Shown here: piece by piece, positions 238 to 18,509 of the stretch
How the letters are laid out: every line of letters begins with the position of its first letter
How positions within the stretch are numbered: position 1 is the first letter of the stretch
NCBI RefSeq assembly: GCF_006335115.1
Contig: NZ_VDMJ01000003.1
Coordinates: 1-64,000 of the forward strand
From: Streptomyces sp. NP160
GTDB taxonomy: Bacteria > Actinomycetota > Actinomycetes > Actinomycetales > Quadrisphaeraceae
Length of the DNA stretch: 64,000 nucleotides
Direction of reading: 5' to 3'
Translations under genes and position numbers: made by a program
Notes under the pieces: generated by a model
What the model saw: only the letters and a program-made list of their open reading frames with translations
Told to the model about the DNA's origin: nothing
Databases searched by the model: none

Positions 238-1878
<1,641 letters not shown>

Positions 1879-1912
1879 CTACCGGGTGCGCGAGTGGTGC
1901 GGGGACGGCGAA

Positions 1913-1955
1913 CGCCCCGGGGCCCCCGCCGTGCGGCGTGGGGGCCGCCGGGGCG
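1913..1955 (-). other. Intercistronic hairpin between groES and groEL
   Basis: An imperfect but long stem-loop (CGCCCCGG pairs with CCGGGGCG, and GGCCCCCGCCG with CGGCGTGGGGGCC, one bulge) fills most of the groES-groEL gap. It could act as a partial terminator or as an mRNA stabiliser that sets the GroES:GroEL ratio. This is inference from sequence only. Confidence 0.45.
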
Positions 1956-1974
1956 AGCCGAGATCAGTGGTCGA

Positions 1975-2268
1975 TCAGGCGACGACGGCGAGCACGTCGC
2001 GCGCCGAGAGCACGAGCAGCTCCTGGCCGCCGTACTTCACCTCGGTGCCGCCGTACTTGGAGTAGATGACCTTGTCGCCGACCTTGACGTCGAGCGGCAC
2101 GCGGTTGCCGTTGTCGTCGATGCGGCCCGGGCCCACGCTCAGGACCTCGCCCTCCTGGGGCTTCTCCTTCGCGGTGTCCGGGATGACGAGGCCGGATGCG
2201 GTGGTCTGCTCGGCGTCGAGGGGCTTGACGACGATGCGGTCCTCGAGCGGCTTGATGGAGACCGACAC
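1975..2268 (-). CDS. groES: 10-kDa co-chaperonin GroES
   Basis: GroES forms the heptameric lid of the GroEL chamber. The 97-residue protein begins [17 protein letters not shown] and contains the mobile-loop region [21 protein letters not shown] and the core [15 protein letters not shown], so it is full length and intact. The start is preceded by an AGGGGAGG Shine-Dalgarno. It is the first gene of the groES-groEL unit, behind a promoter flanked by two CIRCE elements, so heat-inducible control by HrcA is likely. Confidence 0.98.
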
Positions 2269-2458: not shown

Positions 2459-4036
2459 TCAGACCAGCGAGCAGACGGTCTTGGCCTCCAGGTACCCGGC
2501 CAGGCCCTCCATCCCGTTCTCCACGCCCCACCCGGACGTCCGCCGCCCGCCCTTGACGAGCTCCGGGGAGAACACGGAGTGGCAGTTCACCCACACCGTC
2601 CCGGCGCGCACGCCGTCCACCACGCGCTGCGCGGTGCGCAGGTCGGTGGTCCAGACGCTCGCCGCCAGGCCGTAGTCGGTGTCGTTCGCCGCGGCGAGCA
2701 CCTCCTCCACGTCGTCGAAGGGCGCGACGACGACCACGGGACCGAAGACCTCCTCCTGCACCAGCGGCGAGGTCGGGTCCGCCCCCACCAGCACCGTCGG
2801 CGCGAAGAAGCAGCCGCCGCCGGAGGCGTCGGCCACCGGGCCGCCGGACCCCACCACCTGCGCACCCGCGGCCACGCCGTCGGCCACGCGCTGCGCCACC
2901 CGGGCCGCGTGCGCCGGGCTCGCGAGGGGTCCCAGCTGCGCGCCGGGGTGGAGGCCGTGCCCGAGCGGGGTGCCGGCCGCGACCCCCGCGAGCGCCTCGA
3001 CGAAGGCGTCGTGGGCGCGGCGCTCGACGTAGACCCGGGACCCGGCCACGCACACCTGCCCGGAGTTGGCGAAGACCCCCCGCGCCACCCCCGGCACCGC
3101 CGAGGCCATCTCGGCGTCGGCCATGACGACGGCGGGCGACTTGCCCCCCAGCTCGAGGGTGAGCCGGGGCAGGTGCCCGCCGGGCCGCCCGGCCGAGCGG
3201 ACGATGGCGCGCCCCGTGGCGGTCGAGCCGGTGAAGGCCACCTTGTCGACCCCCGGGTGCTCGGCGAGCGCTGCGCCGACGGCACCTCCCCCGGTCAGCA
3301 GCGACACCGCCCCGCGGGGCAGGCCGGCCTCGTCGAGGGCGCGGACCAGCAGCTGCACGAGGCGCACGGACGTGAGCGGGGTGTCCTCGGCGGGCTTGAG
3401 GACGACGACGCACCCGGCGGCGAGCGCGGGCGCGACCTTCATCGCGGCCATGAGCAGGGGGGAGTTCCACGGCGTGATCGCGGCGACCACGCCCACCGGT
3501 TCGAGCACGGTGCTCGCCACCAGCCGCGCCCCGGGGGCCGCGTGCGTGGGCACCGGCGAGGAGGGCCGGAAGGTGGTGCCGGTGAGCTTGGTCGCGGCGC
3601 CGGCGAAGTAGCGGAACTGCTCGGCCGCGCCGGCCACCTCACCGCGGGCCGTGGCCAGGGTCTTGCCCTGGTCGAGCACCTCCAGCTGCGCCAGCTCCTC
3701 GGCGTGCTCGGCGAGCAGGTCGGCCACGCGCCACAGCAGCCGGCCGCGGGCCGAGGGGGTGGCCGCCCACCACGAGCCGGGGCGGCGGTCCTCCAGCACG
3801 GCGCGGGCCTCCTCGACGGCGGGCCCGACGTCCTCCGGGCCGGCGTCGGCGACGTCCGCGAGCACGGCGCCTGTGGCGGGGTCGCGGGTGGTCCGGCGCC
3901 CCCCCGTCGCGGCGGGGCCCCACTCCCCCGCGGTGAACAGGCCGGCCGGCTCCTCGCGCCACGCGTCGAGCACCGACCGCGCGGCCGGGGAGACGGCGCC
4001 GGCGGGCGCGGTCCCGCCGTCCAGCAGCGCGCTCAC
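2459..4036 (-). CDS. NAD(P)-dependent aldehyde dehydrogenase
   Basis: Oxidises an aldehyde to a carboxylate with NAD(P). The 525-residue protein carries the ALDH fold signatures: TPWNSP near residue 188 (oxyanion Asn), LELGGKSP with the general base Glu295, and FANSGQVCVAG with the nucleophile Cys329; FTGSTATG marks the cofactor site and the end holds VNCHSVFSPELVKGG. It starts at GTG 4036, whose GTGA overlaps the stop of the aminohydrolase gene by 4 bp; about 30 extra N-terminal residues precede the usual family start. It is the last gene of the six-gene operon, so it probably finishes the pathway. The substrate cannot be deduced; betaine, aromatic and short-chain aldehydes are all possible. 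Confidence 0.93.
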   Translation of the reverse strand: MSALLDGGTAPAGAVSPAARSVLDAWREEPAGLFTAGEWGPAATGGRRTTRDPATGAVLADVADAGPEDVGPAVEEARAVLEDRRPGSWWAATPSARGRLLWRVADLLAEHAEELAQLEVLDQGKTLATARGEVAGAAEQFRYFAGAATKLTGTTFRPSSPVPTHAAPGARLVASTVLEPVGVVAAITPWNSPLLMAAMKVAPALAAGCVVVLKPAEDTPLTSVRLVQLLVRALDEAGLPRGAVSLLTGGGAVGAALAEHPGVDKVAFTGSTATGRAIVRSAGRPGGHLPRLTLELGGKSPAVVMADAEMASAVPGVARGVFANSGQVCVAGSRVYVERRAHDAFVEALAGVAAGTPLGHGLHPGAQLGPLASPAHAARVAQRVADGVAAGAQVVGSGGPVADASGGGCFFAPTVLVGADPTSPLVQEEVFGPVVVVAPFDDVEEVLAAANDTDYGLAASVWTTDLRTAQRVVDGVRAGTVWVNCHSVFSPELVKGGRRTSGWGVENGMEGLAGYLEAKTVCSLV

Positions 4037-5415
4037 CAGGCCACCTCCGGCAGGCCGTGCTCGGCCACCCACGCCTCGCGGCGCGCGAACAGGCCGGGCG
4101 CGGTGGCGCGCGCCTCGTCGACGAGCTCGCCGAGGTCGGCGTGCACCAGCGCGCCGTCGCGCACCACCGGGGCGCCGTCCACCCAGACGTGGTCGACGTC
4201 GGAGCCGCGCACGGCGTGCACGAGGTTGTGGTGCACGTTGAGCAGCGGACCCGACGTGACCAGCGGCGTCATCCGCGGGGTGCGCGAGCGCACCGCCACG
4301 ACGTCCGCCTTCTTCCCCACCTCCAGCGAGCCCAGGTCGGCCTCGCGCCCCAGCGCGCGGGCTCCACCGGTCGTCCCGAGGGCGAACGCGTCCCAGCTGG
4401 GCAGCGCCGCGGCGTCGAGGTCGCGCAGCTTGGCCAGCAGGGACGCGGCCTTGAGCTCCTCGAACACGTCGAGGTTGTTGTTCTCCTTCTCGCCGTCGGT
4501 CCCCAGGCCGACGGCGACTCCGGCCGCGAGCAGCTCGCGCACCCGGGCGGTGCCGCTGGCCAGCTTCATGTTGCTCACCGGGTTGTGCACCACGCCGACG
4601 CCGCGCTCGGCGAGCAGGCCGATCTCGTCGTCGTCGAGCCAGACGGCGTGGGCGAGCACGGTGCGCGGGGCGTCGAGCATCCCGAGGCGCTCCAGGGCGC
4701 GCACCGGACGGGCGCCGTAGCGGCGCTCGAACTCGGCGACCTCGTCGCGCGACTCGCTGCAGTGCGTGTACAGGCCGGTGCCGAGGTCCCGCGCCATCGC
4801 CACGGCGCGCTGCTGCGCAGCCTCGACGGCGTAGAAGGGGTGCTCCAGCCCCACCCACACCTCGACCCGCCCGCCGGCGGAGCCGTGGTGGTCGGCGGCG
4901 AGCCGCTCGACGTCGTCGAGGGTGTCGAAGAAGTCGTGCTCCGGGTGCTCCGCGGCGTACGGGACGGCCACGAGCCGGTTGCCGAGCAGCTCCGCGGCGC
5001 GGGCTCCGCCGTGCAGGTACCGCCACATGTCGACGACGGTGGTGGTGCCGGCGAGCAGGCCCTCCGCGTAGCAGAGGCGGGCGGCGACCTCGGCCTCGTG
5101 GGCGGTGAGCACGCGGTGCATGGGGTCGATGTGGACGCGCAGCCACTCCCACACCGGCAGCTCCTCGGCGGTGCCGCGCAGCAGGCCGGAGTGGTGGTGC
5201 GCGTTGACCAGACCGGGCACGAGGAGGTGGTCCGGCAGCTCCTCGACGGGTGCCCCCGGGTGCTCGGCGCGCACCGCGGTCAGCACCTCCTCCCGCGGCC
5301 CGACGGCGGTGATGCGGTCCCCGTCCAGCGCCACGGCGCCGTCGGTGAGCACCGTGTGGGCGGCGTCCCCCACGACGACGACGCCGGCCGCCAGCACGCG
5401 CACGCCGGCGCTCAC
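4033..5415 (-). CDS. Amidohydrolase-superfamily deaminase/hydrolase (TrzN/guanine-deaminase-like)
   Basis: A metal-dependent hydrolase that typically removes an amino or chloro group from an N-heterocycle. The 460 residues show the metal motif NAHHHSG (about 66-72), THCSES, HAVWLDDDE with the third His, and GLGTDG with the metal Asp, plus SNMKLASG, all typical of the chlorohydrolase/SAH-deaminase branch. The closing segment VDGAPVVRDGALVHAD is the family's beta-sandwich end. The GTG start at 5415 overlaps the GMC gene stop by 4 bp (GTGA), so translation is coupled. Related enzymes act on guanine, hydroxyatrazine, cytosine or 5'-deoxyadenosine compounds; which applies here is unknown. Confidence 0.85.
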   Translation of the reverse strand: MSAGVRVLAAGVVVVGDAAHTVLTDGAVALDGDRITAVGPREEVLTAVRAEHPGAPVEELPDHLLVPGLVNAHHHSGLLRGTAEELPVWEWLRVHIDPMHRVLTAHEAEVAARLCYAEGLLAGTTTVVDMWRYLHGGARAAELLGNRLVAVPYAAEHPEHDFFDTLDDVERLAADHHGSAGGRVEVWVGLEHPFYAVEAAQQRAVAMARDLGTGLYTHCSESRDEVAEFERRYGARPVRALERLGMLDAPRTVLAHAVWLDDDEIGLLAERGVGVVHNPVSNMKLASGTARVRELLAAGVAVGLGTDGEKENNNLDVFEELKAASLLAKLRDLDAAALPSWDAFALGTTGGARALGREADLGSLEVGKKADVVAVRSRTPRMTPLVTSGPLLNVHHNLVHAVRGSDVDHVWVDGAPVVRDGALVHADLGELVDEARATAPGLFARREAWVAEHGLPEVAW

Positions 5416-6986
5416 CGGCGCACCGACCACGGCACCAGCAGGTCCGCGGCGCGCTCGGCCAGCGCCACCACGGGCGCGAGCGTGTTGGACGTCGGCACGG
5501 TGGGGAACGCCGAGGCGTCGGCCACGCGCAGGCCGTCGACGCCGCGGACGCGGAGCTCGGGGTCGAGCACGGCGGTCCCGTCGTCCTGGCGTCCCATCGC
5601 CGCGGTCCCGCAGGCGTGGAAGAAGGTGGTGCAGGCCAGGCTCATGAGCTCCTCCAGGTCGGTGTCGCCGGTGTCGCTGGTGAGGGTGGGCAGCGGCGCG
5701 AGGCGCTGGGCGCCGAGGGCGGAGAAGACCGGGCCGTCGGCCAGGTCGAGCACGTCGCGCAGGCCCTCGAGCAGGGCGGCGCGGTCGGCGGGGTCGGCCA
5801 GGAGGCCGGGGTGCAGGTCCACGGCGCCGCCGGGGGCGAGGTCGCGCACCACCAGGTGGCCGCGGCTGCGGCTGCCCATGAGCCCCACGCCGAGGCCCAC
5901 CAGGTGCGGGTCGGAGCGGTCCAGCTCGTGGGCCTGCGCGACCGCCGGCGTCGCGCAGGCCGCCTGGGTCACGAAGCAGTGCAGGTCCGGGGCGTCGCTG
6001 CGGGGGCTCGCGCTGCGCCAGTTCCAGACTGCCCCGCCGCCGTTGTCGCGCACCGGCCCCCGCGGCTCGCGCAGCCGCAGGGTCACGCCTTCCAGCAGCG
6101 GGTGGTCCTGGAGGTTGCGCCCCACGCCCGCCAGGGCGCTGACCACGGGCACCCCCAGCCGGGCGAGGTCGGCCGGGTCCCCGACGCCGGAGGCCAGCAG
6201 CAGCCGCGGCGTCTCCACCGCGCCAGCGCACAGCACCACCTCGCCGCCGCTCACCAGCGCGCTGGTCACCGGCTGCCCGTCCAGCAGGTGGACGACGCCG
6301 GTGGCCCGACCGCCCTCCACCTCGACGCGCAGGGCCGGGCTGCCGGTGACCACGGTGAGCGACCCGCTGCCCGGCAGCTGCTCGAGCGGTGGCAGCTCGC
6401 GCAGGTAGGCGCGCGAGGTGCTCCAGCGGCGCGAGCGGACGCCGCCCGCGCCGTCGTCCTCCGCGGCGGCCGTGAGCTCGGCCAGCTCGGCGAGGCCGCC
6501 GGCCCCCTGCCGGCCAGCGGCGACCACGGCGTCGACCAGGGCCGTCGCGACCGGGTGCGGGTCGCGCGGCCGCTCCACGCGCAGCACGCGCTCGGCGAGC
6601 TCCAGCCGGGGCGCGACGTCCGCCCAGCCCCAGCCCGGCAGGTCCCAGCCGTCGTAGTCGCTGGGGTGCCCGCGGTACCAGAGCATCGCGTTGGTGCTGC
6701 TCGACCCGCCCAGCACCCGGCCGCGCGGCAGCGGGATGCGCCGGCCCGCCACCTGCGGCGACGGCGCGTACGAGACGCCCCAGTCGAGCTCGCCGCCGAG
6801 CATCGCGGGCCAGGACCCCGCGTCGGCGACGTCCTCGCGGCCGGCGTCGTCGGGGCCGGCCTCCAGCAGGAGGACGGCCGAGCCGCGCTCGGCGAGGCGG
6901 CGGGCCACCACGCAGCCCGCTCCCCCGCCGCCGACCACCACGTGGTCGTAGGCCCTCGCCGCGCCGGCCGCTGCGGGTCCCACCAT
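5412..6986 (-). CDS. GMC-family FAD-dependent oxidoreductase (choline-dehydrogenase-like)
   Basis: Oxidises an alcohol to an aldehyde using FAD. The 524 residues begin with the dinucleotide motif GGGGAGCVVARRL (about 18-30), then GMC signature 1 (LPRGRVLGGSSSTNAMLWYRG), signature 2 (GAVETPRLLLASGVGDP), the C-terminal catalytic region FHACGTAAMG, and the closing FAD segment GVDGLRVADASAFP followed by PTSNTLAPVVALAE. The ATG at 6986 shares one base with the stop of the preceding decarboxylase subunit (TGATG). Its product could feed the downstream aldehyde dehydrogenase, an alcohol-to-aldehyde-to-acid sequence. The substrate is unknown. Confidence 0.9.
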   Translation of the reverse strand: MVGPAAAGAARAYDHVVVGGGGAGCVVARRLAERGSAVLLLEAGPDDAGREDVADAGSWPAMLGGELDWGVSYAPSPQVAGRRIPLPRGRVLGGSSSTNAMLWYRGHPSDYDGWDLPGWGWADVAPRLELAERVLRVERPRDPHPVATALVDAVVAAGRQGAGGLAELAELTAAAEDDGAGGVRSRRWSTSRAYLRELPPLEQLPGSGSLTVVTGSPALRVEVEGGRATGVVHLLDGQPVTSALVSGGEVVLCAGAVETPRLLLASGVGDPADLARLGVPVVSALAGVGRNLQDHPLLEGVTLRLREPRGPVRDNGGGAVWNWRSASPRSDAPDLHCFVTQAACATPAVAQAHELDRSDPHLVGLGVGLMGSRSRGHLVVRDLAPGGAVDLHPGLLADPADRAALLEGLRDVLDLADGPVFSALGAQRLAPLPTLTSDTGDTDLEELMSLACTTFFHACGTAAMGRQDDGTAVLDPELRVRGVDGLRVADASAFPTVPTSNTLAPVVALAERAADLLVPWSVRR

Positions 6987-7642
6987 CAGTTGTGCTCGCT
7001 CGGGCCCATGATCGTGACGCCCTCGGTCGCCTCGACGTGCCGCACGAAGCGGTAGGTGTCCTCGCGGCCGTCGCTGTGCTTGCGGCGCACCACGGGGTGG
7101 CCGGCCGCGGCGTGGCCCTCCGGGGAGGTGTCGACCTTGGCGACGACGACGTGCGGCGCGCTCGTGTCGGCCAGGCCCGCGGCGCACGCCGCGGCGAACG
7201 CCTCGACGTCGCGGACCGTGCTCGCGCGCACCACACCCGCTCCGCGCGCGATGGCCGCCAGGTCGACGGTGCCGGAGGAGGTGTGGGTGCGCGGCCCCCC
7301 GATGGACTGGTAGCGCTCGTTGTCCCAGACGACCACCAGCAGGTTGCCCGGCTGCTCGTTGCCGAGGGTGGCGAGCACCCCGAGGTTGAAGAGCAGGCCC
7401 CCGTCGGTGTCGAGGGAGACCACCCGCCGGTGCGGCAGCCCCACCGCGAGGCCCAGGGCCTGCGGGGTGACGCACCCGAGCTGCTGCTGGAAGAGGCTGG
7501 CCTCGCGCAGGTGGGGCGCAGCGGTGTACCACTCGTCGACGGCGCCGCCGAGGGAGAGCACCACCAGCTCGTCGGTCAGCATCCCCGCCAGCGCCTCCAT
7601 CGCGGAGAAGCGCGTCATCGCCGAGGCGGGTGCAGCGGTCAT
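6986..7642 (-). CDS. ThDP-dependent decarboxylase, C-terminal (beta) subunit, sulfopyruvate/phosphonopyruvate decarboxylase-like
   Basis: This is the diphosphate-binding half of a two-subunit thiamine diphosphate enzyme. In 218 residues it has the ThDP/Mg motif region SLDTDGGLLFNLG, followed by VVWDNERYQSIGGPRTHT and LAAIARGAG, the order seen in ComE and in the C-terminal half of phosphonopyruvate decarboxylase. The start overlaps the alpha gene by 4 bp (ATGA), consistent with a 1:1 complex. No PEP mutase, phosphonate genes or coenzyme M genes are nearby, so the substrate is probably another 2-oxo acid. Confidence 0.85.
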   Translation of the reverse strand: MTAAPASAMTRFSAMEALAGMLTDELVVLSLGGAVDEWYTAAPHLREASLFQQQLGCVTPQALGLAVGLPHRRVVSLDTDGGLLFNLGVLATLGNEQPGNLLVVVWDNERYQSIGGPRTHTSSGTVDLAAIARGAGVVRASTVRDVEAFAAACAAGLADTSAPHVVVAKVDTSPEGHAAAGHPVVRRKHSDGREDTYRFVRHVEATEGVTIMGPSEHN

Positions 7643-8139
7643 CGGACGACGCTCCCGCCGAGCACGACCGCCGAGTGCTGGTACGCGGAGTACGACCACT
7701 CGTAGGCGTCCACCACGGCCTGCTCGATCCCGGCCTCCTCGCGCACCACGCGGTAGGGGATGCGCAGCGCCGCGAGCATCGGCTCCATCGTGATCCCGTG
7801 CGGCACGGCCCACCAGTTGTTCTCACCCAGCTCGCCGCGGTAGCTCATGACCATCACGACGGGGATGCCGGAGCCCAGGCCCATCCGGGCCAGCGGCTCG
7901 GCGGCCGCCCGCAGCCCGGAGTTCTCCATGCACAGCACGGCGCGCTTGCCGGACAGGAACACCCCGCCGCACACGGCGGCGCCCTCGCCCTCGTTGGTGC
8001 AGGGGACGGTGCGGATCCCGGGATGGGCGTCGAGCGCGGGGTAGAGCGGCTTGAGCAGGGAGTCGGGCAGGTAGCTGGCGACGGTCACGCCGGCGCGCTC
8101 CAGCCCGGCGATCACCGCCTGCACGGCGGTCGGGGTCAT
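7639..8139 (-). CDS. ThDP-dependent decarboxylase, N-terminal (alpha) subunit, sulfopyruvate-decarboxylase-like
   Basis: This is the pyrimidine-binding half of the split ThDP enzyme, 166 residues. ASYLPDSLLKPL and especially TNEGEGAAVCGGVFLSGKRAVLCMENSG contain the conserved Glu that activates ThDP (in NEGEG); MSYRGELGENNWW follows. The arrangement matches ComD. The ATG start at 8139 has GAGGAG 5 bp upstream. It is the second gene of the operon, 41 bp after the flavin monooxygenase gene. The product is expected to be an aldehyde made by decarboxylation, which the later dehydrogenase could oxidise. Confidence 0.85.
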   Translation of the reverse strand: MTPTAVQAVIAGLERAGVTVASYLPDSLLKPLYPALDAHPGIRTVPCTNEGEGAAVCGGVFLSGKRAVLCMENSGLRAAAEPLARMGLGSGIPVVMVMSYRGELGENNWWAVPHGITMEPMLAALRIPYRVVREEAGIEQAVVDAYEWSYSAYQHSAVVLGGSVVR

Positions 8140-8180
8140 CGGTCTCCTCGGGTGCTGGCTGGTCTGGTCGGGGGTCGGGG

Positions 8181-9518
8181 TCAGAACTCGGCGAGGTGGC
8201 CGCGCAGCGTGGCGGCCGTGTAGCGGGTGCGCACGAGACCGCGCCGCTGCAGGACGGGCACCAGGCCCTCGGTGACCTGCACGACGTAGTGGCGCGAGAG
8301 CCGGTGGTACGGCGTGGTGACGAGGAAGCCGTCCCCGCCGACCTCGTCGGCCGCGGCCTCGAGCTGGTCGGCCACCTGCTCGGGGGTGCCCACGAGGTCG
8401 AGGGAGGAGTTGGTGCCGGCGTCGGCCGCCAGCTCGCGCAGCGGCTTGGTGCTCGGGCGCCCGTCGCCGCCGACCTGCGCGAACTTCGCGAGCGTGCCCA
8501 GCGAGCCGCGGGCAGAGCCCGCCAGCAGCAGCTCCGGCGCGGGCAGCGGCGCGTCGAGGTCGAGGGCGGTGAGGTCGACCCCCGTGTAGGCGCTGAACTT
8601 GGCCAGCGTCGTCGCGAGCGCGGTCGGGTGGGCCGCCGAGCGCGCCAGGGCGGCGCGGGCCTCCTCCTCGGTCTCCCCCAGCACCGGGGCCACGAGGAAC
8701 AGCACGCGCAGGTCGTCCGGGTCCCGGCCCGCCTCGGCGGCGCGCTGGCGCACGTCGTCGCGGGCCGTCTTCATGGCCGCGGGGCCGTTGGCCACGGCGA
8801 GCACGACGTCGGCGTTGCGCGCGGCGAAGGCCCGGCCCGTGGGCGACCCGCCGGCCTGGCAGTACACGGGGCGGCCCTGCGGCGAGCGCACCGTGGTGAG
8901 CGGGCCCGCGACGGGGTGGCGGGGACCGGCCGCGTCGACGGGGTGCACGCGGGTGTGGTCGGCGTAGGTGTGGGTGGCGCGGTCCATGACGACGGCGTCC
9001 GGGTCCCAGCTCTCCAGCAGCGCCGTGACCACGTCCACGTGCTCCTGGGCCGCGGCGTAGCGCTCGTCGCGGTCGGGCAGGGCGGGCAGGCCGGCGTTGC
9101 GGGCCTCGGCGTCGTCGGTGCTGGTGACGATGTTCCAGCCGGTGCGGCCGCCGGAGAGGGAGTCGAGCGTGGAGACCAGCCGGGCCAGCAGGAACGGCGG
9201 GTAGAGCAGCGTCGACAGGGTGGTCACGACACCGAGGTGCTGGGTGGCGGCCGCCAGCAGCGCCGACAGCGGGGCCGGGTCGTGCCGCGGCGCGCGCACG
9301 CCCGTGCGCAGCAGGAGCTCGCGGGTGCCGCCCGCCTCGGACGAGACGGCCAGGGAGTCCTCCAGCAGCACCAGGTCGAAGCAGGCGCGCTCCAGGGCCC
9401 GCGCGAGGTCGGTGTGGAAGGCGCCGTCCCAGGGGCTGCCGCCGGCGGAGGCGAACGGCGCGTCCCACTCGTCGGGACCGAAGTGCGTGAACCACCCGAG
9501 GTGGAAGGGCCGTGCCAC
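8181..9518 (-). CDS. LLM-class flavin-dependent monooxygenase (NtaA/SnaA/DszA-like)
   Basis: A flavin (FMNH2)-dependent oxygenase of the bacterial luciferase-like family, 445 residues. The N-terminus HLGWFTHFGPDEWDAP and GGSPWDGAFHTDLARALE, the segment SLSGGRTGWNIVTS, and GSPTGRAFAARNADVV are typical of the nitrilotriacetate/pristinamycin/dibenzothiophene-sulfone oxygenase branch. A separate flavin reductase would be needed; none is seen nearby. The GTG at 9518 is chosen because GGGGAG lies 7 bp upstream; an ATG at 9608 would add 30 low-complexity residues. It is the first gene of the six-gene operon, so it probably attacks the substrate first. The bond broken (C-N, C-S or ring carbon) is not known. 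Confidence 0.88.
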   Translation of the reverse strand: MARPFHLGWFTHFGPDEWDAPFASAGGSPWDGAFHTDLARALERACFDLVLLEDSLAVSSEAGGTRELLLRTGVRAPRHDPAPLSALLAAATQHLGVVTTLSTLLYPPFLLARLVSTLDSLSGGRTGWNIVTSTDDAEARNAGLPALPDRDERYAAAQEHVDVVTALLESWDPDAVVMDRATHTYADHTRVHPVDAAGPRHPVAGPLTTVRSPQGRPVYCQAGGSPTGRAFAARNADVVLAVANGPAAMKTARDDVRQRAAEAGRDPDDLRVLFLVAPVLGETEEEARAALARSAAHPTALATTLAKFSAYTGVDLTALDLDAPLPAPELLLAGSARGSLGTLAKFAQVGGDGRPSTKPLRELAADAGTNSSLDLVGTPEQVADQLEAAADEVGGDGFLVTTPYHRLSRHYVVQVTEGLVPVLQRRGLVRTRYTAATLRGHLAEF

Positions 9519-9735: not shown

Positions 9736-11079
9736 GTGCACGAGGAGCCCGCTGACGCGTCGTCGTCCTCCTCCTCACCCTCGGCGGCGGGCGTGGCGCC
9801 GCTCCTGCGCCCCGAGGGGTGGGCGCTGCTCGAGGCCCTGCCGCCCTACACCGGCCCGGACGCCGCGATGGCCCTGGGCGAGCGCCTGCGCGCCGAGGGC
9901 GCCGAGCCGCAGCTCGTCGCGGCGGCCATGACGCAGTCGCGGCTGCGCGCGAAGGGCGAGGCCAAGTTCGGCCCGTTCGCCGCCGGGATGCTCTTCACCG
10001 CCGAGGGCCTCGAGCAGGCGACGCGGCTGCAGGTGGCGGCCCACCACGCCCGGCGCTTCCGCGACGCCGGCTGCACCCGCGTGGCCGACCTCGGCTGCGG
10101 CATCGGCGGCGACGCGATGGCGCTGGCCTCCCTCGGCCTGGGGGTCCTGGCCGTGGACAGGGACGAGGCGACCGCCGCCGTCGCCACGGTGAACCTGCGC
10201 CACTGGCCCGAGGCGCAGGTCCACCGCGCCGACGTGCTGGACGTGGTCGCCGAGCTCGGCCGGGACGGTTCCGTGGACGGCGCCTGGCTCGACCCCGCCC
10301 GCCGGAACGCCTCCGGACGCCGCGTCCTGGACCCCCACCACGCCTCTCCCCCGTGGAGCGCGGTGCTGGACGTCGCTCGGCGCGTGCCCGCCACGGGCGT
10401 CAAGCTGGCGCCCGGTGTGCCCCGTGACGTCGCCGCGGGGTCCGGGCTGGCCGCGGAGGTGCAGTGGGTCTCCGTCGACGGCGACGTCGTGGAGGCGGCG
10501 TGCTGGTTCGGCCCCCTCGCCCGCCCGGGCCGGGCGGCCACCGCCCTGGTGCTGCGCTCGGCCGAGCACGGCGGCACCGCCACCCTCGTCGACGACGAGG
10601 GACTGGAGGTGCCACCCGCCATCGGCTCTCCGGACGGGGTCGGCGCCTACCTGTACGACCCCGACGGCGCCGTGGTGCGCTCCGGGCTCGTGGGGCAGGT
10701 GGCCGCTCTGGTCGGCGGCTCGCTGCTCGACCCGTCCATCGCCTACGTCACCTCCGACCGGCTGGTGACCACGCCGCTGGCGCGGGCGCTGGCGGTGGAG
10801 GAGGTCTGGCCGTTCGGGCTGAAGGCGCTGCGCACGCGGCTGAGGGACCGGGGCGTGGGCGCCGTGGAGGTGCTCAAGCGCGGCAGCGCCGTGGACGTCG
10901 AGCAGCTGCGCCGGTCCCTGAGGCTGGAGGGACCGCGCCAGGCGACGCTCGTGCTCACCCGCGTGGCGGGTCGCCAGCACGTCCTGCTCTGCCGGCCGGT
11001 GACGACCCCCTCGGCGCCGACGCCCCCGCGACCGTCTCCTGATCGTGACCAGAACCCCGGTCCGGAAACAGCCCCGTAA
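9736..11079 (+). CDS. Class I SAM-dependent methyltransferase with THUMP-like C-terminal domain
   Basis: A predicted SAM methyltransferase conserved in actinobacteria, 447 residues. The SAM-binding motif I VADLGCGIGGDAMALA and the acidic strand end VLAVDRDEATA are clear; WLDPARRNASGRRV resembles the catalytic DPxR-type loop of this family; the last third is the THUMP-like region. The C-terminal tail after residue 420 is Pro-rich and low complexity. GTG at 9736 has GAGG 8 bp upstream. The methyl acceptor is unknown, probably RNA by family resemblance. It is divergent from the monooxygenase operon and may have no functional link with it. Confidence 0.8.
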   Translation: MHEEPADASSSSSSPSAAGVAPLLRPEGWALLEALPPYTGPDAAMALGERLRAEGAEPQLVAAAMTQSRLRAKGEAKFGPFAAGMLFTAEGLEQATRLQVAAHHARRFRDAGCTRVADLGCGIGGDAMALASLGLGVLAVDRDEATAAVATVNLRHWPEAQVHRADVLDVVAELGRDGSVDGAWLDPARRNASGRRVLDPHHASPPWSAVLDVARRVPATGVKLAPGVPRDVAAGSGLAAEVQWVSVDGDVVEAACWFGPLARPGRAATALVLRSAEHGGTATLVDDEGLEVPPAIGSPDGVGAYLYDPDGAVVRSGLVGQVAALVGGSLLDPSIAYVTSDRLVTTPLARALAVEEVWPFGLKALRTRLRDRGVGAVEVLKRGSAVDVEQLRRSLRLEGPRQATLVLTRVAGRQHVLLCRPVTTPSAPTPPRPSPDRDQNPGPETAP

Positions 11080-11212: not shown

Positions 11213-12370
11213 GTGCCGTCGATCGACCGCCACCACCAGCAGCTCGTCCGCAGCGCCCTGGGGCGCCGCTCCTTCCTGCGCATGGCGGGACTGGCGGGCC
11301 TCGGCGTCGCCGGCGCCGGCGCGCTGGCGGCCTGCGGCGGCTCCGACACGGGGGCCGGCACGGGCGGCTCGAGCAGCGGCGGGTCCGCCGACTACGGCGA
11401 CCTGGCCATCCAGCTGTCCTGGATCAAGAACATCGAGTTCGCCGGCGAGTACTTCGCCGACTCCAAGGGCTACTTCAAGGACGCCGGGTTCTCGAGCGTC
11501 AACCTCATCGCCGGCGGTGCGGCGGGCACGAGCGCCGAGGCCGCCGTCACCACCGGCAAGGCGCTCGTGGGCCTGTCAGCCCCCACGCTGACCGCCCCGG
11601 CCATCAACGAGGGCGCCCCCCTGAAGATCATCGGCGCGACGTTCCAGAAGAACGCCTTCTGCATCGTCTCGCTCGACTCCAACCCGATCCCCGACCCGGC
11701 GGCCATGGCGGGCAAGAAGATCGGCGTGCAGTCCGGCGGCAACGAGCAGATCTTCTCCGGGCTCCTCAAGGCCAACGGCATCGACCCCAGCTCGCTGACC
11801 ATCGTCCCGGTCCAGTACGACCCGACCGTGGTCACCACCGGCGAGGTCGACGGCTTCATGGCCTACCTCACCAACGAGCCGATCCTCCTGCAGGGCAAGG
11901 GCTTCAAGACCGTGCAGTTCGCCTTCGCCGACCACGGCCTGCCGCTGGTCACGGAGACCTTCACCGTGGCGCAGCAGACCATCGAGGAGGACCGCGACAA
12001 GCTCAAGGCCTTCCTCAAGGCGGAGATCCTCGGCTGGACCGACGCCCTCAACGACCCGCAGGAGGGCGCGCGCCTCGCGGTGGAGCAGTACGGCAAGGAC
12101 CTGAACCTCAACCTCGACGAGCAGATCCAGGAGATCAACGCCCAGGCCACCCTGATCGTCACGGCCGACACGGTGCAGAACGGCCTGTTCACGATGACCG
12201 ATGAGCTCGTCGCCACCAACATCGAGTCGCTCGCCACGGCCGGCACCACGATCACCGCGGAGGAGCTCTTCGACCTCTCGCTGATCCAGGAGGTCTACTC
12301 CGAGGACCCCTCGCTCATCACCGGCCCGACGCTGACGCCCGAGGCCGCCGCCTCGGCCGCCCCCGCCTGA
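11213..12370 (+). CDS. NMT1/THI5-like ABC transporter substrate-binding lipoprotein
   Basis: The extracellular solute receptor of an importer, 385 residues. The N-terminus holds a twin-arginine motif (GRRSFLRMAG, about residues 18-27) followed by a hydrophobic stretch and the lipobox LAAC, so it is probably exported folded by Tat and anchored as a lipoprotein. The mature part (IQLSWIKNIEFAGEYFADSKGYF, then AAGTSAEAAVTTGKALVG and KKIGVQSGGNEQIFSG) is typical of the NMT1/ThiY/SsuA group that bind pyrimidine precursors, sulfonates or nucleobases. GTG at 11213 follows GGGAGG by 5 bp. Its neighbours are purine enzymes, so a nucleobase-like ligand is the best inference. Confidence 0.88.
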   Translation: MPSIDRHHQQLVRSALGRRSFLRMAGLAGLGVAGAGALAACGGSDTGAGTGGSSSGGSADYGDLAIQLSWIKNIEFAGEYFADSKGYFKDAGFSSVNLIAGGAAGTSAEAAVTTGKALVGLSAPTLTAPAINEGAPLKIIGATFQKNAFCIVSLDSNPIPDPAAMAGKKIGVQSGGNEQIFSGLLKANGIDPSSLTIVPVQYDPTVVTTGEVDGFMAYLTNEPILLQGKGFKTVQFAFADHGLPLVTETFTVAQQTIEEDRDKLKAFLKAEILGWTDALNDPQEGARLAVEQYGKDLNLNLDEQIQEINAQATLIVTADTVQNGLFTMTDELVATNIESLATAGTTITAEELFDLSLIQEVYSEDPSLITGPTLTPEAAASAAPA

Positions 12371-12449: not shown

Positions 12450-13468
12450 ATGGACGCAGCACTCCTGCCCAAGGCCGAGCTCCACGTGCACGTCGAGGGC
12501 ACGCTCGAGCCGGAGCTCGTGGTCGAGCTCGCCCGGCGCCACCGCGTGGCGCTGCCCACCACCGACCCGGCCGTGCTGCGGGCAGCACGCCGCTTCACCG
12601 ACCTGCAGTCCTTCCTCGACCAGTACTACGAGGCCGCCGAGCTGCTGCGCACCGAGCAGGACTTCCACGACCTCATGGCCGCCTACCTCGCCCGCGCCGA
12701 GCAGGCCGGGGTGCGCCGCGCCGAGGTCTTCCTCGACCCCCAGCACCACACCGAGCGCGGCGTGCCCCTGGAGGCGGTGTTCGGCGGCCTGAGCGCCGCC
12801 GCCGCGGCGAGCCCGGTCTCGGTGGCCCTCGTCCCGTGCTTCATGCGCCACCTCGGGCCCGACGCCGCGCTCGAGGCCCTGCGCACGTGGCTGCCGCACC
12901 GCGAGCACTTCGTGGGCGTGGGCCTGGACTCCACCGAGGTCGGCAACCCGCCGGCCGCCTACGCCCCCGCGTACGCCCTCGCCGCCGCGGAGGGCCTGCA
13001 CCGCAGCGCCCACGTCGGCGAGGAGGGCACCGCCGCCGACGTCGCCGAGGCGCTCGACACCCTCGGCATCGAGCGGCTCGACCACGGCAACCACTCCCTC
13101 GACGACGCCGAGGTCGTCGCCCGCCTGCGTGACGCCGGCACGTCGCTGACGGTGTGCCCGCTGAGCAACGTGGCGCTGCGCGTCGTCGACGTCCTCGAGC
13201 GCCACCCGCTGCCGGCGATGCTCGAGGCCGGCCTGGTCGTGTCCGTCAACAGCGACGACCCGGCCTACTTCGGCGGGTACGTCGACGACAACTACCGGGC
13301 CCTGCGCGACGTCGTCGGCCTCACCGACGACCAGCTGGCCCAGCTGGCGCTGGCGTCCTTCGACGCCAGCTTCGCCGACCCCGGCGCCAAGGAGTCGTGG
13401 CGCGCCGAGGTGCTCGCCGCGAGCACCGCCCCGACCCCCGTGACGACCCCCGACCCCCGAGGAGCGCT

Positions 13469-13472
<4 letters not shown>
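12450..13472 (+). CDS. Adenosine-deaminase-family protein, probably adenine deaminase
   Basis: A zinc-dependent deaminase, 340 residues. The metal motif ELHVHVEGT (about 10-18), [22 protein letters not shown] and [13 protein letters not shown] are present. The [11 protein letters not shown] motif is characteristic of the adenosine-deaminase-like adenine deaminases (fungal Aah1 and bacterial homologues), where adenosine deaminases have a different sequence. The expected reaction is adenine to hypoxanthine plus ammonia. It lies between the binding protein and the ATPase of the importer, so it probably acts on the imported compound. The start is ATG 12450 after GGGAGGGA. Confidence 0.83.
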
Positions 13473-14310
<838 letters not shown>

Positions 14311-14311
<1 letters not shown>

Positions 14312-15138
14312 TGACCGACTACCACGTCGCGCCACCCACCGAGCAGGAGCTGGAGGCTCGCACCAAGCGGTCGTTCGAGCGTCCCCGGTGGCTGGCCGGC
14401 GTCATCGGCGTCCTCGGGATCCTCGCGCTGTGGTCCCTGCTGGCCGTCACCGTCTTCGCCGACGGCGGTGGCGTGCCCACGCCCTGGGCCGTCGTCGCGA
14501 AGATGGGCGCCGACGGCTGGTCCCTGTACGGCCCCAACTCCGCGGTCACGGTGAGCAGCGCCGCGCAGGGGTTCCTGTGGGGCAACGCCCTGGCGCTGGT
14601 GCTGGCCGGAGCCGTCCTCGTGGTCCCCCAGCTGGACGGCCTGGCCACGCAGCTGGGCGTCATCAGCTACTGCATGCCGCTGACCGCCATCGGCCCGATC
14701 ATCCAGATCGTCTTCGGCGGCCGGTCGACCTCCATCTTCCTGGCGGCGGTCGCCGTCTTCTTCACCACGCTCATCGGCTCGCTGCTCGGCCTGCGCGCCG
14801 CGGACCGCACGAGCATCGACCTCGTCGCCGCCTACGGCGGCAGCCGCCTGCAGCAGCTGCTGAAGGTCCGCATCGTCTCCGCCCTGCCCAGCCTGCTCGC
14901 CGCGCTGATGATCGCCGCTCCCGCCGCCATGCTCGGCGCGATCATCGGCGAGTACCTCGGCGGCGTCGACAGCGGCCTCGGCGTGGCGCTGACCAACGCC
15001 CAGCAGCAGTTCGACGTGCCCCGCACCTGGGGCCTCGCCATCGCCACCGGCGCCATCGCCGGTGCCGGCTACCTCGTCTTCAGCCTCGTCTCGCGGGTCG
15101 TCACGCCGTGGTCGGCCGGACAGGAGGGCACCTCGTGA
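14311..15138 (+). CDS. ABC transporter permease (first)
   Basis: An inner-membrane permease of the binding-protein-dependent family, 275 residues with about six hydrophobic segments. The coupling loop region (EAA motif) appears around VAAYGGSRLQQLLKVRIVSALPSLLAALM. The ATG shares a base with the ATPase stop. It presumably forms a heterodimer with the next gene product. Confidence 0.9.
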
Positions 15139-16055
15139 GCGCACCCACCGGCACGTCCGACCCCACCGAGGCCCGCGGCACCGCCGACCTCACCACGCCG
15201 CCGCCGGCCGGGGCCCCCGTGCCGGCCCCGCCGGCCGGCGAGTCGGTGCGGCCCGCCGGGCACGTCGTCGGAGTGGCGGTGTGGCGCGCCTTCCGGCCGC
15301 TGCTCGTGTCCGCCGTCGTCGCCCTGGTGGTGTGGTGGGGGTTCCTCGCCGCCTTCGAGATCAGCCCCTTCGTGGGCAAGACGCCGCAGGCCGTGTGGGC
15401 CTACCTCGTCACCGACCCCGACGCCGCGACCAACCGCGCCACCATCGCGGAGCCGCTGGGCGTCACCCTGCAGCACGCGCTGGTCGGGTTCGTCGCCGGC
15501 ATGGCGGCTGCGCTCGTGGTCGGTGCGGCGTTCGTGGCGGCGCGCTCGCTCGAGCAGTCGCTCATGCCCATCGCCATGCTGCTGCGCTCGGTGCCCCTGG
15601 TCGCGATGACGCCGATCATCGTGCTCATCTTCGGTCGCGGGCTCGGGTCCATCGCGGTGATGGGCGGCATCGTCGTCTTCTTCCCCGCGCTGGTGAACGT
15701 CGTGCAGGGCCTGCGCTCGGTGCCCCCGACCTCTCGGGACCTCGTCCACGCCTACGGCGGCTCCGACCTCGCCGTCATGCGCCGGGTCGGCATCCCCACC
15801 GCGATGCCGGCGATCTTCGCCGCCGTCCGCATCTCCGTGCCCGGCGCCCTCACCGGCGCCCTGGTGGTGGAGTGGCTGGCCACCGGCGACGGCATCGGCT
15901 CGCAGATCCTGTCCGCCATCGGCGGCTTCCGCTACGACGAGGTCTGGGCCCTCATCGTGGCCGTCACCGCGACGTCGGTGGTGCTCTACACGCTCGTGGG
16001 CCTGCTCGAGGGCCTCGTCCTGGCCCGGTACGCACCGCACCGCCTGACGCGGTGA
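15135..16055 (+). CDS. ABC transporter permease (second)
   Basis: A second permease of the same family, 306 residues, with an N-terminal Pro/Ala/Thr-rich tail of about 45 residues ahead of the first membrane helix. The EAA loop is at HAYGGSDLAVMRRVGIPTAMPAIFAAV. GTG at 15135 overlaps the first permease by 4 bp. Two different permease genes with one ATPase imply an asymmetric transporter. Confidence 0.9.
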   Translation: MSAPTGTSDPTEARGTADLTTPPPAGAPVPAPPAGESVRPAGHVVGVAVWRAFRPLLVSAVVALVVWWGFLAAFEISPFVGKTPQAVWAYLVTDPDAATNRATIAEPLGVTLQHALVGFVAGMAAALVVGAAFVAARSLEQSLMPIAMLLRSVPLVAMTPIIVLIFGRGLGSIAVMGGIVVFFPALVNVVQGLRSVPPTSRDLVHAYGGSDLAVMRRVGIPTAMPAIFAAVRISVPGALTGALVVEWLATGDGIGSQILSAIGGFRYDEVWALIVAVTATSVVLYTLVGLLEGLVLARYAPHRLTR

Positions 16056-16091: not shown

Positions 16092-17069
16092 GTGAGCACT
16101 GACGCAGGGGCGCCGGGCCGGCGCGTCGTCCTCGACACCGACCTCGGCACCGACGTCGACGACGCCCTCGCCCTCGCGCTGCTGCTCGGCTCCCCCGAGG
16201 TGGAGCTGCTCGGCGTCACCACCGTCTACGGCGACACCGACCTGCGCGCCCGCGCCACCTCGCGCCTGCTGGAGCTGGCCGGCGTCCCCGGCCCCGGAGC
16301 GCCGGGCGGGCTGCCCGTGCGCGCGGGCGCGTCCGCGCCCCTGTCGGGCGCCGAGGTCTGGTGGGCAGGGCACGAGGGCACCCTGCTGGGCGACCTGACG
16401 ACGGCGACGACGACCGCCCCGGCGCCGGGCTCCGCTGCCGCCGACGACGCCGCCGACTGGCTCGCGGCCACCGCGGCCGCTGCGCCGGGCGCGGTGGACC
16501 TGCTGGCCATCGGCCCGCTCACCGGTGTCGCGACGGCGCTGCGCCGCCACCCGGAGCTCGCCCGCCACCTCCGCTCGCTGGTGGTGATGGGCGGCCGCTG
16601 GGACGGCGCGCTGACCGCGGACGGCCTCCTGGAGGACGAGCACAACCTGCGCAGCGACGCCGTCGCCGCGGCCGAGGTCCTCACCTGCGGCGCCCAGACC
16701 CTCGTCGTCGGCCTCGAGGTCACCCAGCGGGTGCGCCTCGAGGCGGGCGACGTGGAGCGCATCGCCGCGGCCGGGCCGCTGGGCGCCGCGCTGGCGGCGC
16801 AGGTGCGGCAGTGGTGGGAGTTCTGGGACGAGCCGTGGGGCGTCCCCCACGACCCGGTGACCGCCCTGGTGCTGCTCGAGCCGGACGTGCTGCAGCTGGG
16901 CCCGCCCGGGCGCGTGGAGGTGGACGGTCGCGGAGCCGTGGTGCACGTGCCCGACCCCGCCGGCACCGTCCGCGTCGCCGTCGGGGTGGACGCCCAGCGC
17001 GCTGCGGAGGCCGTGGTCCGCCGGGTGCTCGCGGGCTGCCGCCGCTCCGCGGAGCAGGAAAGGGCCTGA
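16092..17069 (+). CDS. Nucleoside hydrolase (IunH/RihA family)
   Basis: Splits the N-glycosidic bond of ribonucleosides to give base plus ribose. The 325 residues begin with the calcium-binding signature DTDLGTDVDDALAL (about 15-28) and contain VTTVYGD, LAIGPLTGVATALRR, VVMGG and, near the end, a conserved His-Asp pair (VPHDPVTAL). Starts with GTG, 36 bp after the permease. It would release the base that the deaminases then act on, or salvage ribose. Confidence 0.9.
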   Translation: MSTDAGAPGRRVVLDTDLGTDVDDALALALLLGSPEVELLGVTTVYGDTDLRARATSRLLELAGVPGPGAPGGLPVRAGASAPLSGAEVWWAGHEGTLLGDLTTATTTAPAPGSAAADDAADWLAATAAAAPGAVDLLAIGPLTGVATALRRHPELARHLRSLVVMGGRWDGALTADGLLEDEHNLRSDAVAAAEVLTCGAQTLVVGLEVTQRVRLEAGDVERIAAAGPLGAALAAQVRQWWEFWDEPWGVPHDPVTALVLLEPDVLQLGPPGRVEVDGRGAVVHVPDPAGTVRVAVGVDAQRAAEAVVRRVLAGCRRSAEQERA

Positions 17070-17107: not shown

Positions 17108-18094
17108 ATGACGGTCCGCGACCTGCGCCTGCTGCCCAAGGCCTCCCTGCACACCCACCTCGAGGGGTGCATGCGCCCCTCCACGCTGGCGGACCTGGCG
17201 GCCGGCTACGGCATCCCCGTGCCGGAGACCCGCGGCTACGGGAACTTCGGGGCCTTCGCCGGCCTCTACGACGCCGCGGCGCAGTGCATCCGGTCCGAGG
17301 ACGACCTGCGCCGGCTCGTCCGCGAGGTGGTCGAGGACGCCGCCGCCGACGGAGCCGTGTGGGTGGAGCCCCAGATCTGGCCCCACTACGAGAGCCCGCA
17401 GCTCGCGGACCCCGGGCGGGTCCTCGACGTGGCGCTCGACGAGGGGCGCGCCACCGCCGAGCGGCTCGGCGTGGGCTTCGGCCTGATGGTCACCGCCATC
17501 CGCGTGCTGCCGGTCGAGGACGCCGAGGCCCTGGCCGAGCTGGCCGTCACGCGCGCCGGCCAGGGGGTGGTCTCCTTCGGCCTGGCCCACGACGAGGTGC
17601 TCGGCCCGCCCGCGCCCTTCGCCCGCGCCTTCGCGGTGGCGCGCGCGGGCGGGCTCGTCTCGGCGCCGCACGCGGGCGAGCTGCTGGGGGCCGACAGCGT
17701 CCGCTCGGCCCTGGACGACCTCGGCGCGCAGCGCATCGCCCACGGCGTGCGCGCCGTGGAGGACCCGGCGCTGGTGGAGCGGCTCGCCGCCGAGCGCGTC
17801 TGCCTGGACGTCTGCCCCACCTCCAACGTGCTGCTCGGCGTGGTGCCCTCCCTCGCCGAGCACCCGCTGCGGCAGCTGTTGGAGGCCGGGGTGCCGTGCT
17901 CGGTCAACACCGACGACTCCCTGCTCTTCGGCCCCGGCCTGCTGGAGGAGTACGAGACCGCCCGCACCGCGCTCGGGCTCGACGACGCGCAGCTGGCCAC
18001 CGTGGCGCGCAGCGGCCTCGAGGCGGCCTCGCACGCCCCGGCTGCACTGGTCAGCACGGCCCTCGAGCGCGTGGAGAGCTGGCTGGCGAGCTGA
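17108..18094 (+). CDS. Adenosine-deaminase-family enzyme (second copy)
   Basis: A zinc amidohydrolase of the Add/Ada family, 328 residues. SLHTHLEGCMRP carries the HxH metal pair (about 15-17), VSAPHAGE the third His, RIAHGVRA the catalytic His, and SVNTDDSLLFG the Asp pair. It lacks the [11 protein letters not shown] motif of the deaminase at 12450-13472, so the two probably differ in substrate (for example nucleoside against base). The gene follows the nucleoside hydrolase by 38 bp and closes the operon before a hairpin terminator. Confidence 0.83.
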   Translation: MTVRDLRLLPKASLHTHLEGCMRPSTLADLAAGYGIPVPETRGYGNFGAFAGLYDAAAQCIRSEDDLRRLVREVVEDAAADGAVWVEPQIWPHYESPQLADPGRVLDVALDEGRATAERLGVGFGLMVTAIRVLPVEDAEALAELAVTRAGQGVVSFGLAHDEVLGPPAPFARAFAVARAGGLVSAPHAGELLGADSVRSALDDLGAQRIAHGVRAVEDPALVERLAAERVCLDVCPTSNVLLGVVPSLAEHPLRQLLEAGVPCSVNTDDSLLFGPGLLEEYETARTALGLDDAQLATVARSGLEAASHAPAALVSTALERVESWLAS

Positions 18095-18099
18095 GCCGC

Positions 18100-18133
18100 C
18101 GGCGCGCCGGCCGCTGCTGCGGCTGGCGCGCCG
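18100..18133 (+). terminator. Terminator of the ABC/purine operon
   Basis: A 14-bp stem (18100-18113 with 18120-18133, one G-U pair, loop CTGCTG) starts 6 bp after the last stop codon of the operon. It lacks a T-tract. Confidence 0.7.
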
Positions 18134-18162
18134 ACCGGCACGACCGTCTGGCGGGTGGTAGT

Positions 18163-18176
18163 TTCGGTCCACCGAA
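18163..18176. promoter_or_regulatory. TTCGG-N4-CCGAA palindrome, copy 1
   Basis: TTCGG-TCCA-CCGAA, extended to 9-bp arms (AGTTTCGGT and ACCGAAACT, 18160-18179). It lies 50 bp before the start of the 70-residue membrane protein and is a good candidate operator. Copies 2 and 3 are at 18496-18509 and 18547-18560. Confidence 0.6.
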
Positions 18177-18225
18177 ACTCGGGCGGCGCCGGTGCCGCTC
18201 GAGCGTCACCGAGGGAGGCCACCGG

Positions 18226-18438: not shown

Positions 18439-18495
18439 GGGCCCTGCGCTCCCGAGGGCCCTGCTCCGGGGAGCGCTGCGCAGCGCGCCGCCGGT

Positions 18496-18509
18496 TTCGG
18501 CCGCCCGAA
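18496..18509. promoter_or_regulatory. TTCGG-N4-CCGAA palindrome, copy 2
   Basis: TTCGG-CCGC-CCGAA, 51 bp before copy 3, in the 293-bp gap between the small membrane protein and the antiporter. Apart from the three palindromes and the promoter at 18565-18593 nothing else is recognisable in this gap. Confidence 0.55.

Follow-up and report, generated by a model that had tools for sequence, protein, structure and literature searches.

The soil actinobacterium Streptomyces sp. NP160 carries a six-gene operon at positions 2,459 to 9,518 of the 64,000-nt stretch that we analysed (contig NZ_VDMJ01000003.1, positions 1 to 64,000; the window). It belongs to a real, conserved catabolic gene group for which the literature searched reports no function. 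The genes encode a luciferase-like flavin monooxygenase (LLM), the alpha and beta subunits of a thiamine diphosphate (ThDP) enzyme, a GMC-family alcohol oxidase or dehydrogenase, an aminohydrolase (AH) and an aldehyde dehydrogenase (ALDH). Comparison with related loci revealed that the oxygenase is exchanged while the oxygenation stays with the GMC gene, and that the annotated neighbours are mostly genes of purine catabolism. We tentatively propose that the operon may serve a catabolic route that cuts a one-carbon branch off a carbon of the purine ring, so that the unbranched purine can enter the usual catabolism.

Gene content and conservation of the operon

The genes of ThDP alpha, ThDP beta, GMC, AH and ALDH follow in that order, each overlapping the next, by 4, 1, 4 and 4 bp, and 41 nt separate the LLM gene from that of ThDP alpha. 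All six genes lie on one strand, and Pfam and NCBIfam profiles confirmed the family of every product; a preliminary description of the window was therefore right about strand, overlaps (1-4 bp among five genes) and families, and equally about the lack of a flavin reductase and a regulator inside the operon. Five PF01613 flavin reductases are encoded elsewhere in the genome. A gene finder based on codon usage, whose seed set of known genes already contained all six, recovered every one of them and called ThDP beta from its alternative start. Among the models shown, the only cut-off reached by any of the six proteins was that of the subfamily model TIGR03860, which the LLM exceeded (386.4 bits, cut-off 279.7).

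Scanning genome contigs with ThDP beta yielded 73 loci, to which two plasmid loci were added. These 75 are close relatives among the matches listed rather than a census, and every locus count given here is to be read as "at least". Gene presence was scored by profile search of six-frame open reading frames (E up to 1e-20). The AH was counted above 500 bits, which left out the match of L034 (167 bits), a homologue of 8-oxoguanine deaminase, and an LLM match lying far away on the opposite strand in L068 (95 bits) was also excluded. Results showed that ThDP alpha and beta occur together in all 75 loci, accompanied by GMC in 68, AH in 59 and ALDH in 58; the core made up of the ThDP pair, GMC, AH and ALDH is complete in 49. 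This core occurs together with an LLM in just five loci (L001, L005, L014, L024 and L039), and a genome outside the 75 (L086) also carries all six genes. The nearest locus, that of Quadrisphaera granulorum (L001), has all six in identical order at 86-97% identity. Because this order is conserved and the core recurs in both Alphaproteobacteria and Actinomycetota, the gene group is more than a chance assembly. The earlier claim that the six genes form a unit holds for the core, whose members do not travel separately across the 75 loci, and fails for the LLM, which is not a fixed member. Carriers of the core include many plant- and sea-dwelling bacteria. In a sample of the organism's own class, 6 of 394 genomes matched at 1e-15, the close matches being its own genome and one other (74%).

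Four small clusters (L010:6248-10618, L019:6247-10618, L066:6449-9237 and L072:7780-10609) combine a ThDP pair with a deaminase of the cytidine deaminase (CDA) fold and an NMT1-type binding protein.

Oxygenase exchange, the ThDP clade and purine neighbours

Every one of the 68 loci with a GMC gene holds one kind of oxygenase, either a Rieske enzyme (56) or an LLM (12), and none holds both or neither; of the seven loci without GMC, two have a Rieske enzyme and five neither (Fisher 1.2e-6, with shared ancestry left in). All 12 LLM loci belong to Actinomycetota, and a Rieske enzyme was found in 5 of 17 actinobacterial loci, a list compiled by hand from the titles of sequence records. The window LLM is 91% identical to that of L001 and 29-34% identical to the LLMs of sister clusters, and it does not form one clade with those of Microbacteriaceae, Nesterenkonia, Frondihabitans and Subtercola (p-AU 1.6e-8, in a tree that leaves out the L001 row). 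Since each GMC locus has a single kind of oxygenase and the LLMs are polyphyletic, we concluded that oxygenation goes with the GMC gene and that the LLM is an exchangeable part, its catalyst role being taken elsewhere by another enzyme. The occurrence of an oxygenase in 68 of 68 loci with GMC, against two of seven without it, agrees with an oxygenase that supplies the GMC enzyme with its alcohol substrate.

In 55 of the 56 Rieske GMC loci the catalytic subunit is a separate protein; a fused form occurs in the remaining one, L060, and also in L054, a locus without GMC (weak matches of 101 and 91 bits, respectively, counted as fused because both domains lie in one protein). The separate subunit is of VanA_C type, with a Rieske motif in none of 61 proteins, and its partner is a Rieske-only protein that shows the motif in 53 of 54. 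A gene resembling glutathione S-transferase (GST) adjoins as well, GST profiles matching in 54 of the 75 loci, and in L009 and L027 the catalytic subunit stands without Rieske-only protein and GST in the stretch examined. The catalytic subunit is related in sequence to SxtT/SxtDIOX and to the methylxanthine demethylase NdmA, its nearest solved chains being SxtDIOX and SxtT, followed by NdmA and NdmB. On a plasmid of Rhizobium tumorigenes, one cluster contains two Rieske-less catalytic subunits (L074:4789-5640 and 17628-18497), with apparently a single Rieske protein and a single GST between them.

In a quick, long-branched tree built from 44 ThDP rows, the 25 window-type pairs formed one clade (SH-aLRT 98), which is joined (99) by three pairs from genomes of one family. 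The window subunits are 43-48% (alpha) and 43-44% (beta) identical to these three, which adjoin subunits of xanthine dehydrogenase (XDH, a molybdenum hydroxylase), Rieske alpha/beta genes and a putative extradiol dioxygenase, assigned from the start of its sequence. The fourth pair with XDH and Rieske neighbours, from L107, is not part of the joined clade. These neighbourhoods, the purine context and the chemistry reported for LumK/LumL, rather than close homology, suggest that the window pair may be a heteroaryl decarboxylase. As a separate observation, L103:523-18936, L125:2-12695 and L127:160-18320 each hold a conserved cluster in which a ThDP pair akin to that of the window is combined with XDH subunits, Rieske alpha/beta, short-chain dehydrogenase/reductase, ALDH and probable extradiol dioxygenase, which looks like another unreported N-heteroarene pathway.

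Most annotated neighbours of the gene group are purine-catabolism genes. The Rhodococcus cluster (L034) comes after genes for hydroxyisourate hydrolase (119.1 bits, cut-off 87.45), urate oxidase (336.1, cut-off 168.4) and a PucR-type regulator, and the Microbacterium locus L014 neighbours an allantoate amidohydrolase (487.3, cut-off 479), an XDH-like enzyme and two adenosine-deaminase-family proteins. Locus L012 adjoins a rut gene of pyrimidine catabolism (RutB, 433.3, cut-off 377.95). An XDH-like large subunit is present in 57 of the 75 loci, a BMP-type binding protein in 48, and an AdeC-like deaminase in 29 (two examples scored 336 and 352 bits, both below the 472.5 cut-off). Above 500 bits, an 8-oxoguanine-deaminase-like protein occurs in 20 (one example, 598.7 against 532), deaminases of the ADE type in six and of the ADA-b type in seven; a CDA-fold protein is found in five. 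The organism's own genome has two molybdenum hydroxylases, one of which, 51-57% identical to the XDH-like proteins of the clusters, adjoins a CDA-fold deaminase on another contig. In L057:568-12755 the ThDP pair lies between two UbiD-type decarboxylase genes, together with an NCS2 permease and XDH genes (XdhC and molybdenum subunit).

In the window itself, an operon divergent from the six genes encodes an NMT1-type ABC transporter, two adenosine-deaminase-family proteins and a nucleoside hydrolase family protein (Table 1). The product of the gene at 12450 scored 309 and 301 bits with 3rys and 3ou8, which we take to be adenine deaminases, compared with 109 for the next solved relative, and narrowly missed model NF006850 (404.5 against 419). 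This adenine-deaminase type adjoins genes of an ATP-binding cassette (ABC) transporter both here and in Microbacterium. The substrate-binding protein shows weak kinship to the pyrimidine-binding ThiY-type protein 3ix1 (E 3e-8).

Table 1. Genes of the six-gene operon and of the divergent operon in the window
Product	Position	Strand	Evidence and proposed role
NAD(P)-dependent ALDH	2459..4036	-	PF00171, 500.7 bits; proposed CHO to COOH
Amidohydrolase-family AH	4033..5415	-	PF01979, 191 bits; proposed deaminase of base
GMC-family FAD alcohol oxidase or dehydrogenase	5412..6986	-	PF00732 and PF05199; proposed CH2OH to CHO
ThDP enzyme, beta subunit	6986..7642 (alternative start 7618)	-	PF02775; with alpha, proposed heteroaryl-carboxylate decarboxylase
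ThDP enzyme, alpha subunit	7639..8139	-	PF02776
LLM-class flavin monooxygenase, NtaA/DmoA family	8181..9518	-	TIGR03860 match; proposed pathway oxygenase
NMT1/THI5-type ABC substrate-binding protein	11213..12370	+	PF09084; start as set by the gene finder
Adenine-deaminase-type member of adenosine deaminase family	12450..13472	+	TIGR01430, 314.6 against 216.55 (longer start)
ABC ATPase	13469..14311	+	Gene call; cluster homologues in Microbacterium loci
ABC permease	14311..15138	+	Gene call; cluster homologues in Microbacterium loci
ABC permease	15135..16055	+	Gene call; cluster homologues in Microbacterium loci
Nucleoside hydrolase family protein	16092..17069	+	PF01156, 164.5 bits; among the loci, elsewhere just in L001
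Second adenosine-deaminase-family protein	17108..18094	+	PF00962, 275 bits; solved relatives

The metal ligands of the AH are conserved in 59 of 59 rows. Its residue 100, after the Pro of an I-x-P motif, is His in all 59 and Glu in three solved relatives. We assume that this Glu binds ribose, so that a His in its place suggests that the AH acts on a base. It scored 298 bits with a TRZ/ATZ model and 295 with a 5'-deoxyadenosine-deaminase model, both below the cut-offs, and 130 bits with the guanine deaminase model (cut-off 375.4); the likeness to guanine deaminase put forward in the preliminary description is thus not a particular one. Scores against the equivalogs for deaminases of methylthioadenosine (MTA), S-adenosylhomocysteine and 5'-deoxyadenosine fell short (295.3 against 522 and 176.5 against 779 bits). 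MTA or methionine recycling, which the resemblance to MTA deaminases might suggest, was set aside on the strength of His100 and these cut-offs.

The GMC protein reached 224.6 of the 732.1 bits set for betA and the ALDH 416.9 of the 668.6 set for betaine aldehyde dehydrogenase; with both cut-offs failed, conversion of choline to betaine by BetA/BetB was rejected. No NCBIfam equivalog cut-off was reached by the ALDH among the 25 models shown. Solved relatives of the GMC protein, which include alcohol, choline, hydroxymethylfurfural and pyridoxine oxidases, were not decisive. Sulfonates, phosphonates and triazines were rejected as substrates, since no family or annotated neighbour supports them; the amino sulfonates and aminotriazines mentioned earlier likewise find no support in the neighbours, which point to purines.

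A possible route and its competitors

The gene set, its conservation, the oxygenase swap, the purine neighbourhood and the ThDP clade were established computationally, whereas each reaction, the order of the reactions and the substrate are what we infer. A base, or a nucleoside from which the nucleoside hydrolase would free it, would enter through the ABC transporter, and its exocyclic amine would be removed by a deaminase, either the AH or the adenine-deaminase type. The methyl group would be hydroxylated by the LLM enzyme, or by the Rieske oxygenase in most sister clusters. The GMC enzyme would then oxidise CH2OH to CHO and the ALDH CHO to COOH, after which the ThDP pair might decarboxylate the heteroaryl carboxylate by treating N=C-COOH like an alpha-keto acid. 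An XDH-type enzyme would take over the bare purine. An oxygenase tied to GMC and followed by ALDH and a ThDP enzyme fits a methyl group on the ring that is oxidised step by step until it is a carboxylate and then leaves as CO2.

Our guess for the likeliest single substrate is 2-methyladenine released from 2-methyladenosine (m2A) in RNA; it is the sole widespread natural C-methyl purine known to us. The metabolism of 2-methyladenosine in mycobacteria is reportedly the topic of two older studies, to go by their titles. Our searches of the literature on 2-methyladenine and on the gene combination found no description of such a pathway, in agreement with the earlier view that it is undescribed. 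All 23 bacteria examined in PMC11708014 had m2A in their RNA, and PMC10838301 reports it for chloroplast RNA, both in plants and in Chlamydomonas. A dedicated 2-methyladenine pathway fed by bacterial and plastid RNA, with the ThDP enzyme as a purine-2-carboxylate decarboxylase and unrelated oxygenases oxidising the methyl group, is rather unlikely; its methyl-oxidising enzymes would be LLMs of two lineages, an NdmC-like Rieske system that is split, and a Rieske enzyme that is fused.

Several observations weigh against the removal of a ring branch from a purine. Heteroaryl-methyl hydroxylation by an LLM enzyme has no precedent that we know of. Among the 68 GMC loci, AH is absent in 11 and ALDH in 10 in the stretch examined, some of which run to contig ends. 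The four small clusters described above lack oxygenase, GMC and ALDH; they may import a carboxylate that is already formed. Of the 75 loci, 15 are devoid of all the other purine deaminases that were counted, uricase-type neighbours occur in one, and the neighbours annotated were chosen ones. In the ThDP tree the Lum rows form a separate long branch that is not placed with the window pair. Window alpha matched LumK candidates at E 2e-14 to 1e-16 and window beta LumL candidates at 1e-9 to 1e-11 (8e-11 at best), compared with 5e-17 and 5e-23 for a ComDE-annotated pair, so that by sequence the pair appears no nearer to LumK/LumL than to that pair.

The last comparison would also suit a ThDP pair that decarboxylates an open-chain 2-oxo acid, as ComDE-like enzymes do. 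The operon would then break down an acyclic or side-chain compound, with fragments that run into purine catabolism. ComDE models are the top-scoring named decarboxylase models for alpha, and remoter split pairs occur in acyl-CoA, tricarballylate and phosphonate contexts. These remoter pairs lie outside the window clade, however, both ComDE cut-offs failed (TIGR03845, 83.8 against 147.95 bits; TIGR03846, 91.5 against 221.5), and the XDH and purine neighbours would be left unexplained, so that we consider this rather unlikely. The ComDE-like character of the subunits in the preliminary description is a distant likeness, although the ComDE-annotated pair is no farther away than LumK/LumL, so that decarboxylation of a 2-oxo acid may still apply. 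NtaA-type LLMs are known for N-dealkylation. The oxygenase might dealkylate an N-substituted adenine, either an N-methylpurine or a cytokinin such as zeatin, with the ALDH acting on the released aldehyde, the GMC enzyme on the side-chain alcohol, and adenine passing to purine catabolism. Adenine-deaminase types are close by and many hosts are plant-associated by their record titles, and NdmC-like Rieske enzymes are also known for N-dealkylation (PMC4408171). Such a route is unlikely: it gives no task to the ThDP pair, which varies least in its presence across the loci, and no pathway of this kind appears in the cytokinin literature among the matches listed.

A pteridine ring, on which 6-hydroxymethylpterin would pass through 6-formylpterin to pterin-6-carboxylate, followed by ThDP decarboxylation, hydroxylation and deamination, would employ GMC, ALDH, ThDP enzyme, XDH and deaminase, and could draw on the 8-oxoguanine-deaminase-like proteins of 20 loci. 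We regard it as very unlikely, given that uricase, allantoate and adenine-deaminase neighbours are of no use for pterins and that a natural alcohol needs no oxygenase, yet one is present in all GMC loci. The pterin deaminase of PMC9513972 is a protein of 399 residues. Breakdown of riboflavin or lumichrome by a pathway like RcaE plus lum shares its parts with the clusters (split ThDP pair, aminohydrolase, XDH, ALDH, NMT1-type ABC transporter and NtaA-family oxygenase), and is still hardly credible: proteins like LumD, LumE and LumH found no match at 1e-6 among 1361 predicted genes of the loci and window, the LLM is nearer DszA than riboflavin lyase, and the AH is just 30-31% identical to LumM candidates. 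The clostridial route from xanthine to an aminoimidazole-carboxylate was rejected, as it leaves GMC, ALDH and oxygenase idle.

Relation to known systems and significance

One of the closest known systems is the Lum pathway of lumichrome catabolism, in which, according to PMC12746152, the split ThDP pair LumK/LumL is reported as a heteroaryl decarboxylase whose substrate, with its carboxylate on a carbon beside a ring nitrogen, is likened to an alpha-keto acid. There too a two-gene ThDP enzyme is followed by an aminohydrolase gene, in a cluster with XDH-type, ALDH, Rieske and NMT1-type ABC genes. In contrast, the search at 1e-6 found no LumD, LumE or LumH homologues for the window group, which has purine neighbours and an LLM or VanA_C-type oxygenase, and is distant in sequence, with identities of 36-38% over 95-99 residues for alpha and 32-41% over 101-116 for beta. 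A putative lum cluster was seen in four genomes (L129-L132), with BMP-type or NMT1-type ABC genes beside or near it in three. In gene order and sizes it corresponds to LumA-LumF and LumI-LumM as given in PMC12746152. There are three exceptions: two genes stand in the place of LumJ, the candidate for LumH falls short of the 80 kDa reported, and the stretches examined show no P450. The putative lum cluster suggests that the family of these genomes, which is also that of the joined ThDP pairs, is Nocardioidaceae; 13 of its 341 genomes matched at 1e-22, and 12 of 16 places were read.

The sister clusters recall NdmCDE, the methylxanthine N7-demethylase of caffeine catabolism, in which a catalytic subunit without Rieske motif goes with a GST-like gene (NdmC/NdmE; PMC4408171). 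They agree with it in layout, with a Rieske-less catalytic subunit, a GST-like gene and a Rieske domain outside the catalytic subunit. They differ in that this domain forms a protein by itself, where NdmCDE has it on a reductase; the window has an LLM instead. The same source mentions homologues of ndmCDE, chiefly from Sinorhizobium and Mesorhizobium, to which no function has been assigned. ComDE sulfopyruvate decarboxylase is of the same split alpha/beta type (28% and 32% identity to the ComDE-annotated pair), but the window pair forms a separate clade. Within the NtaA/DmoA family (DszA, YtnJ, DmoA, riboflavin lyase), the best solved relatives of the window LLM are DszA (252 bits), HcbA1 (221), YtnJ (218) and riboflavin lyase (166), and none is a purine enzyme by name.

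As for the surroundings, the operon is flanked by groEL/groES and a THUMP-like methyltransferase gene (window 238-2268 and 9793-11079), as in Q. granulorum. An acyl-CoA-dehydrogenase-family protein with weak domain scores, perhaps of the DszC/SfnB monooxygenase kind, is encoded at 19984-21288.

If the proposed route is true, it would show where a modified purine from the RNA of bacteria and plastids ends up and would widen ThDP chemistry to purine carboxylates. It would also provide a role for the ndmC/ndmE-like genes of Sinorhizobium and Mesorhizobium mentioned in PMC4408171, provided that they are the same genes. The group is also a clear example of unrelated oxygenases that carry out the same step of a pathway.

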